A stretch of 64,000 bases of DNA from Maribacter sp. ACAM166 (GTDB lineage Bacteria > Bacteroidota > Bacteroidia > Flavobacteriales > Flavobacteriaceae): the NCBI RefSeq assembly GCF_005771495.1, contig NZ_VAUW01000002.1, positions 1-64,000 of the forward strand, read 5' to 3'. Position 1 is the stretch's first letter, and each line of letters begins with the position of its first letter. The notes beneath the pieces are model-generated. The model did no database searches. It worked only from the letters and a program-made list of their open reading frames with translations, and was not told where the DNA came from. Both the position numbers and the translations under genes were made by a program. Below are positions 8,047 through 27,914 of this stretch, one piece after another.

Positions 8047-8886
8047 GTGCCCATTTTATTTCAAAAAATCATACCAAAATTATACGGACTTTATTTCAAT
8101 CTCTTTGTCTGGCTTCAATCAAACAAAATTGCCAAACAAGCATTCGAAGTATTCGCTACCGTTCGAAAAGGTCGTGTGTTACCTAATCAAAAGCAGTATT
8201 TAGACAGTGCAAAACTCGAAGTTTTAAACGTAGGCGACAATCAAATTCAGTTATATAGATGGCCAGGCACTAAAGAAACGGTAGTACTGGTACATGGTTG
8301 GGAAAGTAATGCATGGCGATGGCACAGACTAATTGAAAAACTACAAGAAGCCGATTATAACATTATAGCCTTTGACGCCCCTGCTCATGGATATTCAACG
8401 GGAAAATTGTTATATGTCCCAATCTATGCCGAAGCTTTGCAAGCAATAGCATTGAAATACCGACCTAAAACGGTTATTGGTCATTCCGTAGGTGGGATGA
8501 CCGTTTTGTATAATGAGTATAAACATTCAAATGCATTTATAGAAAAAATAGTGACTATAGGCTCTCCTTCAGAATTCAACGAAATCCTAACCCATTATAA
8601 AAATCTATTAGGTTTGAATAAAAAGGTGATGAAAACGTTGGAGTCTTATATTTATTCTAGATTTGGTTTCACCTCAAAAGAATTCTCCAGCTCTAAATTT
8701 GTTTTAAATAATTCGAAAAAAGGTTTACTCTTTCATGACAGGCTGGACAAGGTAACTCCTTATCATGCATCTGTAGAGGTAAATAAACATTGGAAGGGAA
8801 GCGAACTAATAAGCACTGAAGGTTTTGGGCATTCAATGCATCAAGATGAGGTGAACGACAAGATTATCACCTTTTTAAAGCTGTGA
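8047..8886 (+). CDS. Alpha/beta hydrolase
   Basis: The 279-residue protein shows the full catalytic set of the fold. There is an oxyanion-loop HGWES (about residue 84), the nucleophile elbow GHSVGG (about 146), an acidic residue in HDRLDKVTP (about 238) and the histidine of GFGHSMH (about 261). It probably hydrolyses a small ester or amide; the substrate is unknown. No ATG precedes the hydrolase core, so GTG at 8047 is the likely start. It is a single gene between two unrelated ones. Confidence 0.8.
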   Translation: MPILFQKIIPKLYGLYFNLFVWLQSNKIAKQAFEVFATVRKGRVLPNQKQYLDSAKLEVLNVGDNQIQLYRWPGTKETVVLVHGWESNAWRWHRLIEKLQEADYNIIAFDAPAHGYSTGKLLYVPIYAEALQAIALKYRPKTVIGHSVGGMTVLYNEYKHSNAFIEKIVTIGSPSEFNEILTHYKNLLGLNKKVMKTLESYIYSRFGFTSKEFSSSKFVLNNSKKGLLFHDRLDKVTPYHASVEVNKHWKGSELISTEGFGHSMHQDEVNDKIITFLKL

Positions 8887-21988: not shown

Positions 21989-22025
21989 TATATCCTTAAA
22001 ACAATTTACTTTCAGAATACCCTAC
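21989..22025 (-). promoter_or_regulatory. Candidate ECF-sigma promoter of the repeat lipoprotein gene
   Basis: On the minus strand GTAGGGTATT (22016-22025) begins a 37-base block that matches the block upstream of fecR at 27 of 37 positions without gaps. The second conserved parts are AATTGTT and ATATA. The distance from the 10-mer to ATG is 50 bp. The match is seen directly; its role as an ECF promoter is inferred. Confidence 0.55.
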
Positions 22026-22053
22026 CTCCTTTTTTATTTTTTTTAAAATATCC

Positions 22054-22584
22054 TTGATAAAAATATACCTCTTGAATTTAGAACATCAGCAAAATATATG
22101 CGAAGAGACCGTTTACAGAAGGGTTTTTAATGAAACATCAAAAACTATCTTCAATTACATCTATTACAAATTTGGGAACGAAGAAAAAGCGAATGATGCT
22201 GTACAGGAGGCATTTGTTAAATTATGGGAAAACTGTGCTAAGGTTAGTCCGGATAAGGCGAAATCCTATTTATATACCGTAGCCAACAATTTATACCTCA
22301 ATGTTTTAAAAGCGGAAAAAGTACGTTTAAAGTATGCTGACAAAACATTGAAGACCACTAATGAGTCTCCCGAATTTATCATGGAAGAAGCCGAGTTCAA
22401 GGAAAAGCTGGACAACGCATTAAACAGCCTACCAGAAAATCAGCGTATCACATTTTTGTTAAATAGGATTGACGGTAAAAAATATGCTGAAATTGCAAAA
22501 ATGGAAAATGTAAGCGTCAAGGCAATTGAAAAAAGGATGCATCTTGCCCTAAAAAGTCTTAGAGAGAGAATTGATGGAATATAA
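22054..22584 (+). CDS. ECF-type RNA polymerase sigma-70 factor
   Basis: The protein has 176 residues. Region 2 is at about 10-75 (YIYYKFGNEEKANDAVQEAFVKLWEN) and region 4 at about 120-175 (LNSLPENQRITFLLNRIDGKKYAEIAKMENVSVKAIEKRMHLAL). This is the FecI-like Bacteroidota group that is paired with FecR anti-sigma factors. No ATG precedes region 2; TTG at 22054 or TTG at 22072 must be the start. The fecR gene follows after 195 bp with its own candidate promoter, so the sigma gene is probably read alone at a basal level while its regulon is induced. Confidence 0.92.
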   Translation: MIKIYLLNLEHQQNICEETVYRRVFNETSKTIFNYIYYKFGNEEKANDAVQEAFVKLWENCAKVSPDKAKSYLYTVANNLYLNVLKAEKVRLKYADKTLKTTNESPEFIMEEAEFKEKLDNALNSLPENQRITFLLNRIDGKKYAEIAKMENVSVKAIEKRMHLALKSLRERIDGI

Positions 22585-22729
22585 AGGGTTGCTGGTTCAT
22601 AACAAAATGACTATTCTTAAAACGCACTAAGTTTGCAGTAAAAAGTTATAGATTTCAATAATTATTCACTTAACAGTGTTGCACGATTATAAATTAGTGA
22701 AAACCGACAACTGAATAACATATACTAAA

Positions 22730-22766
22730 GTAGGGTATTTTACAACTTAATTGTTACTACTATATA
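22730..22766 (+). promoter_or_regulatory. Candidate ECF-sigma promoter of fecR and the TonB receptor
   Basis: GTAGGGTATT (22730-22739) begins a 37-base block with 27 identities to the minus-strand block upstream of the repeat lipoprotein gene. The fecR ATG is 40 bp after the 10-mer. Confidence 0.55.
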
Positions 22767-22779
22767 AAGCTGAAAAGAA

Positions 22780-23691
22780 ATGCAAGAAAATTACTTAGCA
22801 AAATGGCTTACTGATGAATTAACCGAAGCTGAAATGGTTGAGTTCAAAAAATCAGAAGACTTCGCCACCTATCAAAAAATAAAGGAATCAGCATCAATAC
22901 TTGAGGGTCCTAAATTTGATATAGATAAAGCTTGGAGTTCTCTTGAACAAACTAAATCAAAGGAACAGCCCAAAGTATTTACTTTAACTCCATTCAAAGC
23001 TTTTATACGAATTGCTGCCGTCATAGCAGTATTACTTGCAGGGTCATTCTTTTACCTCAGTACACTGAACGAATCCTTTACTACTGAATATGCTGAAAAT
23101 AAAACTATTACTCTGCCAGACACCTCTGAAGTTATCTTGAATGCTGAATCTAAATTGACTTTCAGTGAAAAACAATGGGACGACAACAGAAATGTTAACC
23201 TAGAAGGTGAAGCATATTTCAAAGTAGCTAAGGGAAAGAAATTTACGGTGGCAACTGCACAAGGCCTTGTGACCGTTTTGGGAACTCAATTTAATGTAGA
23301 GAATCGTAAGGACTACTTGGAAGTCACTTGTTTTGAAGGTTTAGTAAGTGTAACTATTAACGGAAAAGAAACAAAACTCTCAGCAGGTAATTCACTCTTG
23401 GCAATTAATGGTAAACGTACGATGTCGAAAGCTACTGTCAACGGTAAACCTTCATGGCTAACCAAAGAAAGTTCGTTTAGAAGTATACCCTTACATTTTG
23501 TGATGGACGAGTTACAACGACAGTTCAATATTAAAATCATCACGAAAAACATTGACAAAGGCCAATTATACACTGGTTCCTTTAGTAACGAAAATTTAGA
23601 ACTTGCGCTTAAGAGTATTAGCGTTCCTTTACAAATTAAGTTTAATTTAGATGGGGATAAAGTGCTATTCTATGACGAAAAAGCACATTAA
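22780..23691 (+). CDS. FecR family anti-sigma factor (transmembrane, DUF4974 C-terminus)
   Basis: The 303-residue protein has a short cytoplasmic N-terminal part (1-75) that should bind the sigma factor and one membrane helix at about 77-95 (FIRIAAVIAVLLAGSFFYL). The periplasmic FecR domain is at about 105-200 (TLPDTSEVILNAESKLTF, GEAYFKVAKGKKFTV, VLGTQFNV). A DUF4974 domain lies at about 225-303. It should relay the ligand-loaded state of the TonB receptor to the ECF sigma factor. Its last 20 bases overlap the receptor gene, which suggests translational coupling. Confidence 0.93.
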   Translation: MQENYLAKWLTDELTEAEMVEFKKSEDFATYQKIKESASILEGPKFDIDKAWSSLEQTKSKEQPKVFTLTPFKAFIRIAAVIAVLLAGSFFYLSTLNESFTTEYAENKTITLPDTSEVILNAESKLTFSEKQWDDNRNVNLEGEAYFKVAKGKKFTVATAQGLVTVLGTQFNVENRKDYLEVTCFEGLVSVTINGKETKLSAGNSLLAINGKRTMSKATVNGKPSWLTKESSFRSIPLHFVMDELQRQFNIKIITKNIDKGQLYTGSFSNENLELALKSISVPLQIKFNLDGDKVLFYDEKAH

Positions 23692-26191
23692 TTATTTTCT
23701 AATCTGTTTTTTACTGCTGTTTTGTAGTACAAATGGCTTGGCGCAACAGGTCACAAAAAAATCGATTGTATTATCCAATTACCTGCTAGAATTGGAAACG
23801 GAGTACGAAGTAAAATTTTCGTTTGCCGACAATGATATTAATGACATAAAAATTATAAAATCAACGTCATCTACACTTGAATCTATACTTGATCATATTC
23901 GTAGCACTACAGACTTAACGATCACAAAACTAAATAACCGTTATTACACGTTAACTAATACCACAACCATTTCGGTTTGTGGTATTGTTTTGGATAATTT
24001 TGAAAACAACACCATTCCAGGAGCGACGGTAGAAATTATAGAATCAAATACCGCACGTATCACCAATTTGAACGGTGAATTTTATTTTGATAACGTACCC
24101 AAAACTTCTTTAATCCTCATAAAACATTTAGGTTTCAAACCCTTATTTATTGAAGCTAAAGAATTGGCCAATGCTGCAGAATGCAAAACAATTGCGATGG
24201 GACTAAGCTATCAAAAATTAGATGAAGTTATCGTTTCTCAATTTTTGACCACAGGCCTAAATAAATCAATTGATGCCAGTATCGAACTCAATCTGGCTAA
24301 GTTTGGAATATTACCGGGAATAAGCGAACCAGATATATTACAGACTGTACAAGCACTTCCCGGCATAAAAAGTGTTGATGAAACTGTATCAGACATCAAT
24401 ATTAGAGGTGGTACAAATGACCAGAATCTTATTCTTTGGGACGGTATTAAAATGTATCAAACAGGACACTTTTTTGGTTTAATTTCTGCCTTCAATCCGT
24501 ATATAACGGAAAAAGTAAAGGTTGTAAAAAATGGTACTTCTGCAGTGTATGGCGGCGGACTCAGTGGAACATTAGATTTACAAACATCAAATCATATTCC
24601 CTTAACTTTTAACGGTGGTGCAGGTTTCAATTTAATATCTGGGGATGTTTTTGGGCAAATTCCAATTCAGAAAAATTTAGCATTACAAGTTTCTGCTCGC
24701 AGGTCTTATACCGATTTTTTAAGTACACCTACTTACACAGTATTTTCTGAAAAGGCTTTTCAAGATAGCCAAGTCAATAGTGAAAGTGACTTCTATTTTT
24801 ATGATTTTACGGCAAAGCTTATCTACGAAATCAATCCTGATCAAAATCTTCACATCAGCTTGGTCAACATGAGTAATAACCTAAATTACTTGGAAACTAA
24901 AGAAGGTAATAATTCCCCAAACCGAAGTAATTTAAACCAAGATAATATTTCCGTAGGAGCCCAACTAAAAAGCGATTGGACCGATAGCTTCAGTTCTGAT
25001 TTACACTTTTATTATACGCAATACAGCCTTGATGCCTTAACTATTTCAAATAACGAAACACAACAATTAAAGCAAGAAAATTTAGTAAAGGAATCAAGTA
25101 TAAAACTGATTACTACTTATAAACTGAAGGAAAATTTAGATTGGAGAAATGGTTATGAACTTACGGAAACCGGTATAGAAAACAGAACCAATATTAATCA
25201 ACCTCCATTTATTAGCAACATAAAGGGCGTTATTCGTAAACATGCCCTATTTTCTGAAGTGCAATTTACTTCAGAAAACAATAAATTCTTTGGTCTATTC
25301 GGTGGTCGATTAAATTATGTTGAAAATCTCGACACGTTCAAAGAGTTAATTTTTGAACCACGAATCAATCTTTCATATGAACTGTTATCAAATTTTAAAA
25401 CTGAGATTTTAGGAGAATTTAAAAGTCAGGTCACAAATCAGATTATAGACCTAGAACAAAACTTTCTTGGCATTGAAAAAAGAAGATGGATTCTATCAGA
25501 TGGTACTACCTTACCTATAACAAAAAGCAAACAAGGTTCTGTAGGGTTTAATTATGACACTTCTAAGTTATACCTAAGCGTAGAAGGATTTTACAAAACG
25601 ATAAATGGAATTAACGTATATACCCAAGGTTTTCAGAATCAGAATCAATTTGATGGCGAAATCGGCTCATATGCCGTGAAAGGATTGGAATTTTTAATCA
25701 ACACAAAGAACAACGATTATAGTGCTTGGCTTAGTTACACTTATAATAAGAATGAGTATACGTTTGATGCATTGATACCAGCATCGTTCCCTAATAATTT
25801 AGATATAAGAAATTCGGTAACCCTAGCTGCGAATTATACAATTGGCAATCTAAAATTAGGAGCTGGACTTAATTATACATCTGGGAAACCGTACACCAAA
25901 CCAGATGAAAATAAACCAATTGATACTGCTGTATTCCCAAACGAAATAAATTACGAAAACCCGAATAGTAGTCGATTACCCGAATACATAAGGGCAGACG
26001 CCTCCGCAATTTACACGTTTAGATTGGGTGAAAGTACCAAGGGAACAATAGGCGCATCAATTCTTAATATTACAGATAGAAAGAATACTTTAAATACCTA
26101 TTATAGAATACAAGAAGATAATACCATAGAAACTATTGAACGTGTTTCATTAGGCGTTACTCCAAATGCTAGTTTTAGAATTCATTTCTGA
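23672..26191 (+). CDS. FecA-like TonB-dependent receptor with STN signalling domain
   Basis: From ATG 23672 the protein has 839 residues. A signal peptide ends at about residue 25 (TNGLAQQ). An STN (secretin/TonB short N-terminal) domain at about 35-95 should contact FecR, a carboxypeptidase-regulatory-like domain sits at about 105-185, and the plug contains INIRGGTNDQNLILWDGIKMY. The 22-strand barrel follows and ends in the outer-membrane signature FRIHF. The ligand is unknown. The size is that of small-ligand FecA-type receptors rather than SusC proteins. The gene overlaps fecR by 20 bp at its start and the convergent blh gene by 10 bp at its end, with no terminator between. Confidence 0.92.
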   Translation: MTKKHINYFLICFLLLFCSTNGLAQQVTKKSIVLSNYLLELETEYEVKFSFADNDINDIKIIKSTSSTLESILDHIRSTTDLTITKLNNRYYTLTNTTTISVCGIVLDNFENNTIPGATVEIIESNTARITNLNGEFYFDNVPKTSLILIKHLGFKPLFIEAKELANAAECKTIAMGLSYQKLDEVIVSQFLTTGLNKSIDASIELNLAKFGILPGISEPDILQTVQALPGIKSVDETVSDINIRGGTNDQNLILWDGIKMYQTGHFFGLISAFNPYITEKVKVVKNGTSAVYGGGLSGTLDLQTSNHIPLTFNGGAGFNLISGDVFGQIPIQKNLALQVSARRSYTDFLSTPTYTVFSEKAFQDSQVNSESDFYFYDFTAKLIYEINPDQNLHISLVNMSNNLNYLETKEGNNSPNRSNLNQDNISVGAQLKSDWTDSFSSDLHFYYTQYSLDALTISNNETQQLKQENLVKESSIKLITTYKLKENLDWRNGYELTETGIENRTNINQPPFISNIKGVIRKHALFSEVQFTSENNKFFGLFGGRLNYVENLDTFKELIFEPRINLSYELLSNFKTEILGEFKSQVTNQIIDLEQNFLGIEKRRWILSDGTTLPITKSKQGSVGFNYDTSKLYLSVEGFYKTINGINVYTQGFQNQNQFDGEIGSYAVKGLEFLINTKNNDYSAWLSYTYNKNEYTFDALIPASFPNNLDIRNSVTLAANYTIGNLKLGAGLNYTSGKPYTKPDENKPIDTAVFPNEINYENPNSSRLPEYIRADASAIYTFRLGESTKGTIGASILNITDRKNTLNTYYRIQEDNTIETIERVSLGVTPNASFRIHF

Positions 26192-27123
26192 CCTTGGTTC
26201 AGTTTTTTGATTACCAAAACATGGGGAAAAGTAATAGCGGCCAAAAATGAAAAAAAGAATGCCAATGATGTTTCCAAGTTATCCCTGAACACAAAAAGTA
26301 ACACTAGAAATCCTAGAACAGAAATTAACCAATAGGGAAGTGAAGCCATCAAAAATGATTTGAAGGAGCCTTTATTAATATGTCCATGCAAATAAAATAT
26401 TTGGTCATATAAAGAGGGAATGGAGTGCCATAATATAAAATAAATGGCAAAACCCCATAATAAGGAGGCCGTTTTAAACACTACAAAAAAGACCCCTATA
26501 AAAAACACCTCCTTTAAAGGATTGATTTTTATATCATTAATCAAAACCAAAATAAAGCCGAACACAAGCGTAAGTATCCCACTTATTAGTAATCCAACTT
26601 CATATACAGATTTGGGAATCGAATATCCAATTATGGTTTCAACAATATTAGATGTTATCATTGCATTTGCATCAAAAAGAAGAAAGAGAATAAAAATACC
26701 GTATGCAATATAAAGCCCACTAGTTTTTAAAGATGATATACTAGTCTTGGAAATAAAATGTTGTTCCCCAAAATGATATCCACTAAATAGCACAAACATG
26801 ACCAATGCTAAGCTTGGTACTAGGTGAAAAACCAATACACTACCCAACACAAAAAGTATATAATACAACAGAATATTTAGGTAATTTCTAGTCGATTTGT
26901 TTTTAGCTTCAGTCTTTTGAAGAAGCGTAAGGTCATTTGCTCCATGTAAAATTCCAAAAGAAAGAATAAATACATAGGCTATATACTGCTCTATCACATC
27001 TTCAAAAATGACAGCCAACCATAGGGAAAAGAAGGTACCCACAAGGATCACGCTTTCCAACTTCACAAAATCAATATACCTATTTTTTATTTTGTTCAAT
27101 ATTTTAACAAATAAATTAAACAA
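26182..27123 (-). CDS. blh: Brp/Blh family beta-carotene 15,15'-dioxygenase
   Basis: Blh splits beta-carotene into two retinals, the chromophore of proteorhodopsin. The 313-residue integral membrane protein has about eight helices and the conserved histidines of the family: H60 in GILHGANDL, H117 and H122 in YHFGEQH, H233 in LWHSIPSLYD and H301 in FPHVLV. The only in-frame start ahead of the first helix is TTG at 27123, because a stop lies in frame at 27151-27153 and no ATG exists between. The gene diverges from proteorhodopsin across 53 bp. Carotenoid synthesis genes (crtEBIY) are not in this window. Confidence 0.92.
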   Translation of the reverse strand: MFNLFVKILNKIKNRYIDFVKLESVILVGTFFSLWLAVIFEDVIEQYIAYVFILSFGILHGANDLTLLQKTEAKNKSTRNYLNILLYYILFVLGSVLVFHLVPSLALVMFVLFSGYHFGEQHFISKTSISSLKTSGLYIAYGIFILFLLFDANAMITSNIVETIIGYSIPKSVYEVGLLISGILTLVFGFILVLINDIKINPLKEVFFIGVFFVVFKTASLLWGFAIYFILWHSIPSLYDQIFYLHGHINKGSFKSFLMASLPYWLISVLGFLVLLFVFRDNLETSLAFFFSFLAAITFPHVLVIKKLNQGQK

Positions 27124-27125
27124 AC

Positions 27126-27159
27126 ATTGTTTAACTATTTGTAAATTTACTTAAACAAT
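27126..27159. promoter_or_regulatory. Nested dyad between blh and proteorhodopsin
   Basis: ATTGTTTAA (27126-27134) and TTAAACAAT (27151-27159) are perfect 9-bp arms. Inside lies the 10-bp palindrome GTAAATTTAC (27141-27150). The element covers most of the 53-bp divergent region, so it is placed to control both genes. Operator function is inferred. Confidence 0.5.
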
Positions 27160-27176
27160 TTATAAAAACTTGTACT

Positions 27177-27914
27177 ATGGAACATTTTATTACTTCAATC
27201 TCATTGGTCACCAAAATGGCATCCAATGACTATGTAGGATTCACATTCTTTGTAGGATGCATGGCTATGATGGCGGCTTCTGCTTTCTTTTTCCTATCTA
27301 TGAACGATTTTGATACTAAATGGAAAACCTCTATTCTGGTATCTGGACTTATCACCTTTATTGCTGCAGTCCATTATTGGTATATGCGAGATTATTGGGC
27401 AACGGTAGGTGAATCTCCAACCTTCTTTAGATATGTAGACTGGGTACTCACAGTTCCTTTAATGTGTGTTGAATTTTACCTTATTCTAAAAGTAGCTGGC
27501 GCAAAAAAATCCCTCATGTGGAAACTAATTTTTGCATCTGTGGTAATGTTAGTAACTGGGTACTTTGGAGAAGCTATCTACAATACTGGAAGTGGACCAG
27601 CGGTTTGGGGTTTAATTTCAGGATTGGCATATTTCTACATTGTTTATGAAATATGGTTTGGAACCGCAAAAAAACTAGCAGAAAAAGCAGGTGGAGCCGT
27701 TTTAACAGCACACAAGACACTATGTTGGTTCGTACTCGTAGGATGGGCGATTTACCCATTAGGATATATGGCAGGCACACCTGGCTGGTATGAAGGACTT
27801 GGAGATTTAGGTCTTAATATGGATGTTATTTACAACATCGGAGACGCCATTAACAAAATTGGATTTGGACTCGTTGTATATGGTGCAGCTGTTGCGGCTA
27901 AGAAAACTGCATAA
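27177..27914 (+). CDS. Proteorhodopsin, green-tuned proton pump
   Basis: The 245-residue seven-helix rhodopsin carries the proton-pump triad D88, T92 and E99 in the helix-C motif RYVDWVLTVPLMCVEF. The retinal Schiff-base lysine is K227 in GDAINKIGF and the pump-associated histidine is H66. The residue that tunes colour is M96, as in flavobacterial green-absorbing forms. The DTE triad argues against the sodium-pump (NDQ) and chloride-pump types. It pumps protons out of the cell in light, and it is retinal-dependent through the adjacent blh. A strong terminator follows directly. Confidence 0.97.
   Translation: MEHFITSISLVTKMASNDYVGFTFFVGCMAMMAASAFFFLSMNDFDTKWKTSILVSGLITFIAAVHYWYMRDYWATVGESPTFFRYVDWVLTVPLMCVEFYLILKVAGAKKSLMWKLIFASVVMLVTGYFGEAIYNTGSGPAVWGLISGLAYFYIVYEIWFGTAKKLAEKAGGAVLTAHKTLCWFVLVGWAIYPLGYMAGTPGWYEGLGDLGLNMDVIYNIGDAINKIGFGLVVYGAAVAAKKTA

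Follow-up and report, generated by a model that had tools for sequence, protein, structure and literature searches.

We propose that two similar sequence blocks in a 64,000-nucleotide (nt) stretch of the Maribacter sp. ACAM166 genome (contig NZ_VAUW01000002.1 of assembly GCF_005771495.1, positions 1 to 64,000, hereafter the window) are promoters read by the extracytoplasmic function (ECF) sigma factor that is encoded between them. Together with an adjoining FecR-type regulator and a TonB-dependent receptor, this sigma factor would very probably form a signalling system of the FecI/FecR type, whose regulon would comprise envelope genes and an RNA arm. The genomic distribution of the motif that the blocks define supports the view that this regulon extends beyond the locus itself and includes the gene of a small RNA. 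The features are listed in Table 1.

Table 1. Positions of the predicted promoters, genes and RNA features (window coordinates unless a contig is named; source genome, Maribacter sp. ACAM166)
Feature	Position	Strand	Remarks
Lipoprotein, 589 aa	20196..21965	-	Cys23 followed by QDEFEE, resembling a surface export signal
Predicted ECF-type promoter of the lipoprotein gene	22000..22025	-	-35 GTAGGGTATT, -10 ATTGTT; probable start site near 21993
ECF sigma factor, regions 2 and 4	22054..22584	+	Pfam PF04542 and PF08281 above cut-off; exact start codon uncertain
Predicted ECF-type promoter of the fecR-receptor operon	22730..22755	+	Probable start site near 22762
FecR-type anti-sigma regulator	22780..23691	+	Pfam PF04773 and PF16344 above cut-off
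TonB-dependent receptor	23672..26191	+	N-terminal signalling domain, carboxypeptidase-like domain, plug
Third recurrent site, predicted promoter of the small RNA	Contig C61, 16025	+	Interval between the pdxH-like and SIMPL-domain genes
Tandem paralogue of the small RNA	G000:C61:16214-16303 (L132, about 8215-8304)		Also in L324-L326
Fourth exact site			Ahead of a lipoprotein gene with a DUF4382 domain (Pfam)

A Two-Part Motif Flanks the Sigma Gene

An earlier note on this DNA had reported a 37-base block that occurs twice, gapless and with 27 of 37 positions identical, and comparison within the window bears this out. One block, on the minus strand, starts at 22025 in the space separating the lipoprotein gene from the sigma gene, and the other, on the plus strand, starts at 22730, between sigma and fecR. 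The 10-mer GTAGGGTATT is the same in both and is found in the window at these two places only, and the runner-up 37-base match to the minus block scores 24. The same note would have seen its reading refuted had the 10-mer been common and randomly placed in the genome. A search of the complete 4.92-Mb source genome with the two-part pattern GTAGGGTATT-N9-AATTGTT did not refute it, the two blocks being the only perfect matches. There are no sites with one mismatch and two with two mismatches, and at up to three mismatches the count is 69 versus 33 for the reversed pattern, so that the information is carried by near-perfect matches only. The shorter form GTAGGGT-N13-RTTGTTW has four sites in the source genome versus none for its reversed pattern, with a chance expectation of about 0.2 under independent bases. 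Two of the four are at the sigma locus, one is at the small RNA described below and one precedes a second lipoprotein gene. No plus-strand copy of the 10-mer lies ahead of the sigma gene in the window, and to judge from the sequence the sigma gene does not appear to be autoregulated through the GTAGGGT-N13-RTTGTT motif.

Both sites are conserved in the best 80 of 236 sigma relatives from named genomes, a set of orthologues that spans many genera of the Flavobacteriaceae. The gene order, with the lipoprotein on the left and sigma, fecR and the receptor on the right, is found at 76 of these 80 loci, the remaining four being incomplete. When GTAGGGT-N13-RTTGTT was sought with up to two mismatches, two loci had no testable region on the lipoprotein side and three had none on the fecR side. 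The motif was present upstream of the lipoprotein gene at all 78 testable loci (77 exact, one with one mismatch) and upstream of fecR at all 77 (69 exact, seven with one and one with two mismatches), and of 3100 mononucleotide-shuffled versions of these regions three attained one mismatch or fewer. In the site profiles GTAGGGT and TGTT are invariant and most of the spacer drifts. Where the motif on the fecR side has no more than one mismatch (76 loci), the distance from its end to the fecR start codon is 22-24 nt in 74 cases. On the other side 33-37 nt separate it from the lipoprotein start codon at 73 of 78 loci, and an outlier of 1,986 nt comes from a locus at which a non-adjacent lipoprotein copy was matched. 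These near-fixed distances are the geometry of a promoter. That the two blocks resemble each other by chance or through a recent duplication, as might be thought from the presence of only two copies at the locus, has next to no probability, and we reject it on this cross-genus footprint, since each place is conserved separately in 77-78 loci of many genera with a differing spacer. The position of the motif between sigma and fecR groups fecR with the receptor, although this is sequence evidence and read-through from sigma is possible. The conserved sites ahead of the fecR-receptor operon and of the lipoprotein gene also lend support to two proposals of the earlier note, namely that the receptor would be autoregulated and that the lipoprotein would belong to the same regulon.

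Sites Are Missing Where the Locus Is Missing

The 36 Maribacter genomes contain 128 exact GTAGGGT-N13-RTTGTTW sites versus 10 for the reversed pattern. Of these, 62 are at the sigma locus (both sites in 30 genomes, one in two genomes), 28 are at the small RNA and 38 are elsewhere. Three of the genomes (G010, G011 and G035, which are 94, 100 and 99% complete) have neither a site nor a fecR orthologue, their best fecR matches having E values of 4.5e-42 to 6.5e-40 at 31-32% identity. A fourth, the 83%-complete bin G021, has no fecR orthologue that could be found and a single site, which is inside a coding frame. The motif is also not a generic promoter of every FecR locus, an explanation rejected for the source genome, where none of the five other FecR-like matches has an exact site. 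We consider it very improbable that the blocks serve as operators, bound close to ordinary promoters by some other DNA-binding regulator. Operators can indeed be long shared blocks, but here the two parts are asymmetric and their spacing is fixed, the distance to the start codons at the sigma locus is nearly constant, and the sites disappear together with the locus.

In 149 genomes of the family, each of the 21 that encode the sigma factor at E<=1e-70 has two or more sites (92 altogether), whereas 38 of the other 128 carry any site, with 60 sites in total. This co-occurrence, the conservation across genera, the promoter-like geometry and the lack of sites without a fecR orthologue all support the central claim of the earlier note, that the blocks are sites for the ECF factor of the locus itself. 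Of the 60 sites in the genomes that lack a close sigma orthologue, however, at least 15 are within 400 bp of a sigma homologue of about 50% identity, and recognition of the motif may therefore be shared by a sigma subfamily. If the motif were a promoter common to several related ECF factors, the regulon would belong to that subfamily and not to one factor. We regard this as unlikely, though deserving of serious consideration, because the four exact sites of the source genome are confined to the locus, the RNA and one lipoprotein, with none at the five other FecR-like matches, and because not a single site occurs in the three near-complete Maribacter genomes that lack a fecR orthologue. Recognition by the locus's own sigma factor is what we infer from the combined distribution.

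A Predicted Small-RNA Gene Behind the Motif

The third recurrent site lies in the interval between a pdxH-like gene and a SIMPL-domain gene, in which no conserved reading frame was seen. Downstream of it is a stretch of about 105 nt that, in an alignment of 19 sequences, has a conserved 5' part, a conserved and mostly unpaired GTTGGTTTTTGATTT and an intrinsic terminator, the stem of which shows compensatory changes with both sides altered in two of seven pairs. A covariance model built from the 19 sequences finds this predicted small RNA in 32 of the 36 Maribacter genomes at E<=1.5e-6, the four without a match being G010, G011, G035 and G027. In G010, G011 and G035 the interval is 304-305 nt long versus 418 nt in the source genome; the RNA and its promoter are absent and a tandem paralogue is kept. 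The RNA gene of G021 (L297:1470-1640) has a promoter that reads ATAGGG and an interrupted terminator stem, an apparent decay in progress such as would be expected after loss of the sigma factor, in a bin that is incomplete.

In the 149 family genomes the model matched 14, which are 13 of the 21 with a close sigma and 1 of the 128 others. Of 12 RNA matches outside the genus, 10 are near a pdxH-like gene and nine have GTAGGG-TTGTT upstream, seven of them within about 40 nt of the match, one at 75 nt and one, in L328, at 158 nt. L333 and L334 keep the RNA core but have an altogether different terminator, an indication that the core is the functional part. No Rfam family reached its gathering score at the RNA loci L132, L134, L281, L322, L327 and L333. 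We found no description of the motif or the RNA in searches of the open-access literature, and "undescribed" is used here within the limits of that search.

The conserved intergenic transcript could instead be the message of a micro-peptide, often with an ATG/GTG AAA AAG start, and most of the 34 RNA loci do have a start-like triplet 14-18 nt past the motif. The frames that follow, however, range from 2 to 34 codons and vary in sequence, three of the 34 loci have no start by the pattern used, and conservation runs past the frames into the core before the terminator. We consider a peptide message improbable, and a regulatory RNA is the reading that we retain.

In front of the tandem paralogue there is another conserved, promoter-like element, TGTAAGG-N14/16-CGAC, a different ECF-type motif that was matched at 22 of 40 loci. 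The paralogue is present in the three Maribacter genomes lacking a fecR orthologue. At L322:1685-1772 the tandem RNA is weakly similar, below threshold, to the Bacteroides rteR and BTnc231 small-RNA (sRNA) models, largely in the terminator region.

Dispersed Sites and Further Candidate Members

Of the 38 dispersed Maribacter sites, 27 are intergenic and precede genes for lipoproteins, secreted proteins or small membrane proteins, and the theme of these 27, as far as it can be read from the predicted products, is the cell envelope. Eight of the 38 are ahead of a 27-aa membrane peptide, seven of these with a terminator-like hairpin directly after the stop codon. Another seven are upstream of the gene for a secreted, glycine-rich protein that belongs to no Pfam family, and three precede a membrane protein of 54-55 aa. 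Nine are at lipoprotein-like genes, namely the DUF4382 gene of the source genome and a PepSY-like gene (both by Pfam, the latter for one of two near-identical proteins) and others that were recognized by eye. One site at the end of a contig is a second copy of that genome's RNA promoter, and three, in G003, G018 and G027, are of the same type as the site in L407 and were left unclassified. Recurrent matches of the GTAGGGTTCC/GTAGGGTCCC type were examined in L176, L394, L395 and L407. All four are inside a coding frame of one conserved 271-codon gene, which carries them in several genera, and we reject them as regulon sites and treat them as chance.

The 27-aa peptide, a single helix of the form MKxFLAI...LFNAILL...K, is found behind the motif in seven Maribacter genomes (L261-L264, L117, L151, L156, L158 and L164), with a related one in an eighth (L410). 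The 54-55-aa membrane protein, MDVxNEI..., is conserved behind the motif in three genomes (L409, L414 and L416).

Observations That Weigh Against the Proposed Regulon

A number of observations count against the regulon as proposed. Absence of the locus in G010, G011 and G035 was judged by fecR only. G027, a 64%-complete bin, has the locus yet no RNA match, and G021, an 83%-complete bin, retains its decayed RNA gene though no locus was found. Outside the genus the pattern used detects no motif at three of the 12 RNA matches, and in one more, that in L328, the motif is about 158 nt away. Seven of the 38 dispersed sites are inside coding frames (L169, L176, L405, L407, L415, L418 and L420), and the leaders of the dispersed genes, which measure about 27 to 102 nt, exceed those at the sigma locus in both length and variability. 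The core itself is not invariant, with the exact TTGGTTTTTGATT in only 20 of the 34 RNA loci and TTGGTTTT in 27 of them.

The search for RNA targets belongs with these points, as core complements gave no convincing target in the source genome or in the 36 genomes. In the source genome the core has 24 exact complements, among them the RNA gene itself, and the reversed pattern has 16. In the 36 genomes, complements within 30 nt upstream of an ATG number 304 versus 192 with the pattern reversed. Among the matches listed, the recurrent ones look by eye like conserved coding sequence. A ranking of the window genes as targets by duplex energy was uninformative.

Genes of the Locus

The products of the locus have the make-up of a FecI/FecR/TonB system, with an ECF sigma factor containing regions 2 and 4, an adjoining regulator of the FecR family, and a TonB-dependent receptor with a predicted FecA-like N-terminal signalling domain. 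The sigma factor scores 119.4 bits on TIGR02985, the model of the Bacteroides-expansion sigma subfamily, under its curated cut-off of 126.4. The probable start of the receptor is the ATG at 23672, a Met that is invariant in 23 aligned relatives and that gives a 20-nt overlap with the end of fecR. A comparison of the receptor sequence with the PDB sequences gave no match. The lipoprotein is predicted to consist of N-terminal alpha/beta repeats, acidic linkers and three C-terminal lipocalin-like barrels. Foldseek with the whole protein gave, among the top rows, matches of low TM (template-modelling) score only, and VIA-align with single domains gave lipocalin-like matches. Next to the receptor, in divergent orientation, are genes for a beta-carotene dioxygenase-like protein and a rhodopsin (window 26182-27914), which are adjacent in some relatives and were not seen in others within the stretches compared. 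An Hfq model had no match in the source genome, and the control search was positive in 5 of 14 reference genomes.

A Model for the Envelope Regulon

In the mechanism that we propose, the blocks would be -35/-10 promoters composed of GTAGGGTWTT, a 9-base spacer and RTTGTTW, and would be recognized by the ECF sigma factor whose gene they flank. The TonB-dependent receptor would sense a ligand or the state of the envelope and pass the signal through its N-terminal signalling domain to FecR, which would then free or activate the sigma factor. The latter would turn on the fecR-receptor operon, such that receptor and regulator rise together as feedback, and would also turn on the divergent lipocalin-like lipoprotein, the RNA of about 105 nt in the pdxH-SIMPL interval and a group of small lipoproteins and membrane proteins that varies between species. 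The RNA, through the mostly unpaired core around GTTGGTTTTTGATTT, would probably pair with the mRNAs of envelope proteins, and by analogy with the sigma-E RNAs and FopS it may act as their repressor. A broader interpretation, which we hold only tentatively and to which we would give somewhat less than even chances, is that the Maribacter-Zobellia-Muricauda group of the Flavobacteriaceae has built an envelope-homeostasis response from iron-signalling parts. A TonB-receptor transducer and FecR would release a sigma factor with a regulon of surface lipoproteins, micro membrane proteins and an sRNA that silences outer-membrane mRNAs without Hfq, and the tandem paralogue, on its second ECF-type promoter, would let two envelope signals converge on one RNA family.

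FecI/FecR/TonB-type systems are usually viewed as local control of a single transporter. The motif described here predicts a dispersed regulon and adds a small-RNA gene to a system of this type. It also provides a genetic context for the undescribed lipocalin-repeat lipoprotein and for the membrane proteins of 27 and 54-55 aa. Whether an RNA arm forms part of an envelope response in a genome that has no recognizable Hfq thereby becomes a directly testable question.

Comparison With Known Systems

The RpoE (sigma-E) envelope response includes the sRNAs MicA, RybB and MicL and an Hfq-dependent repression of mRNAs for outer-membrane proteins, and the Maribacter system would resemble it as an envelope-oriented ECF regulon with a small RNA, here a predicted gene, among its members. 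It differs in that its regulator is of the FecR family and not RseA and in that no Hfq was found in the source genome. With the FecI-FecR-FecA system of Escherichia coli, as outlined in PMC9249621, it shares an ECF sigma factor, a FecR protein, a TonB receptor with a signalling domain of the same predicted fold and a sigma-type promoter, predicted in Maribacter, ahead of the receptor. According to the same outline, fecI and fecR of E. coli are on one message that is not autoregulated, whereas the Maribacter fecR appears from its position to be grouped with the receptor behind the predicted sigma-type promoter and hence to fall within the proposed sigma regulon, and the layout of fecI-fecR cotranscription was not found. 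In contrast to the E. coli system, the Maribacter motif is also present ahead of genes for lipoproteins, tiny membrane proteins and a small RNA.

Within the Bacteroidota, ECF promoter motifs tied to a named sigma factor seem to be scarce. The definition of the present motif rests on 155 conserved sites, all at a single locus. The relevant part of PMC7366714 names EcfO of Bacteroides fragilis and states that none was then known for Bacteroides thetaiotaomicron. In Flavobacterium psychrophilum, another member of the Flavobacteriaceae, the predicted ECF promoter ahead of the sRNA Rfp11 that is mentioned for SM6 in PMC9723704 is a precedent for an RNA in such a regulon; the -10 part of the Maribacter motif, RTTGTT by the position profiles, differs from that of the SM6 ECF promoters as given there. 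The Bacteroides sRNAs GibS and FopS have the same arrangement of a single-stranded seed region followed by a terminator hairpin (PMC11697453, PMC7366714). In the portions of these two papers that deal with the sRNAs, FopS represses SusC-like transporters and uses housekeeping promoters, and GibS is behind promoter motif 2, for which an alternative sigma is suspected and none is named. The Maribacter RNA is distinct from both in that the loci scanned have no Rfam match at threshold. The ECF pair of Phocaeicola vulgatus is, like the Maribacter one, from the Bacteroidota, and it answers envelope stress; its anti-sigma factor is a single large protein that ends in an outer-membrane barrel, and the sections of PMC9308784 on this pair describe neither a FecR/receptor pair nor an RNA. 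Set beside these examples, the Maribacter system is a new form of surface signalling and not a new category.
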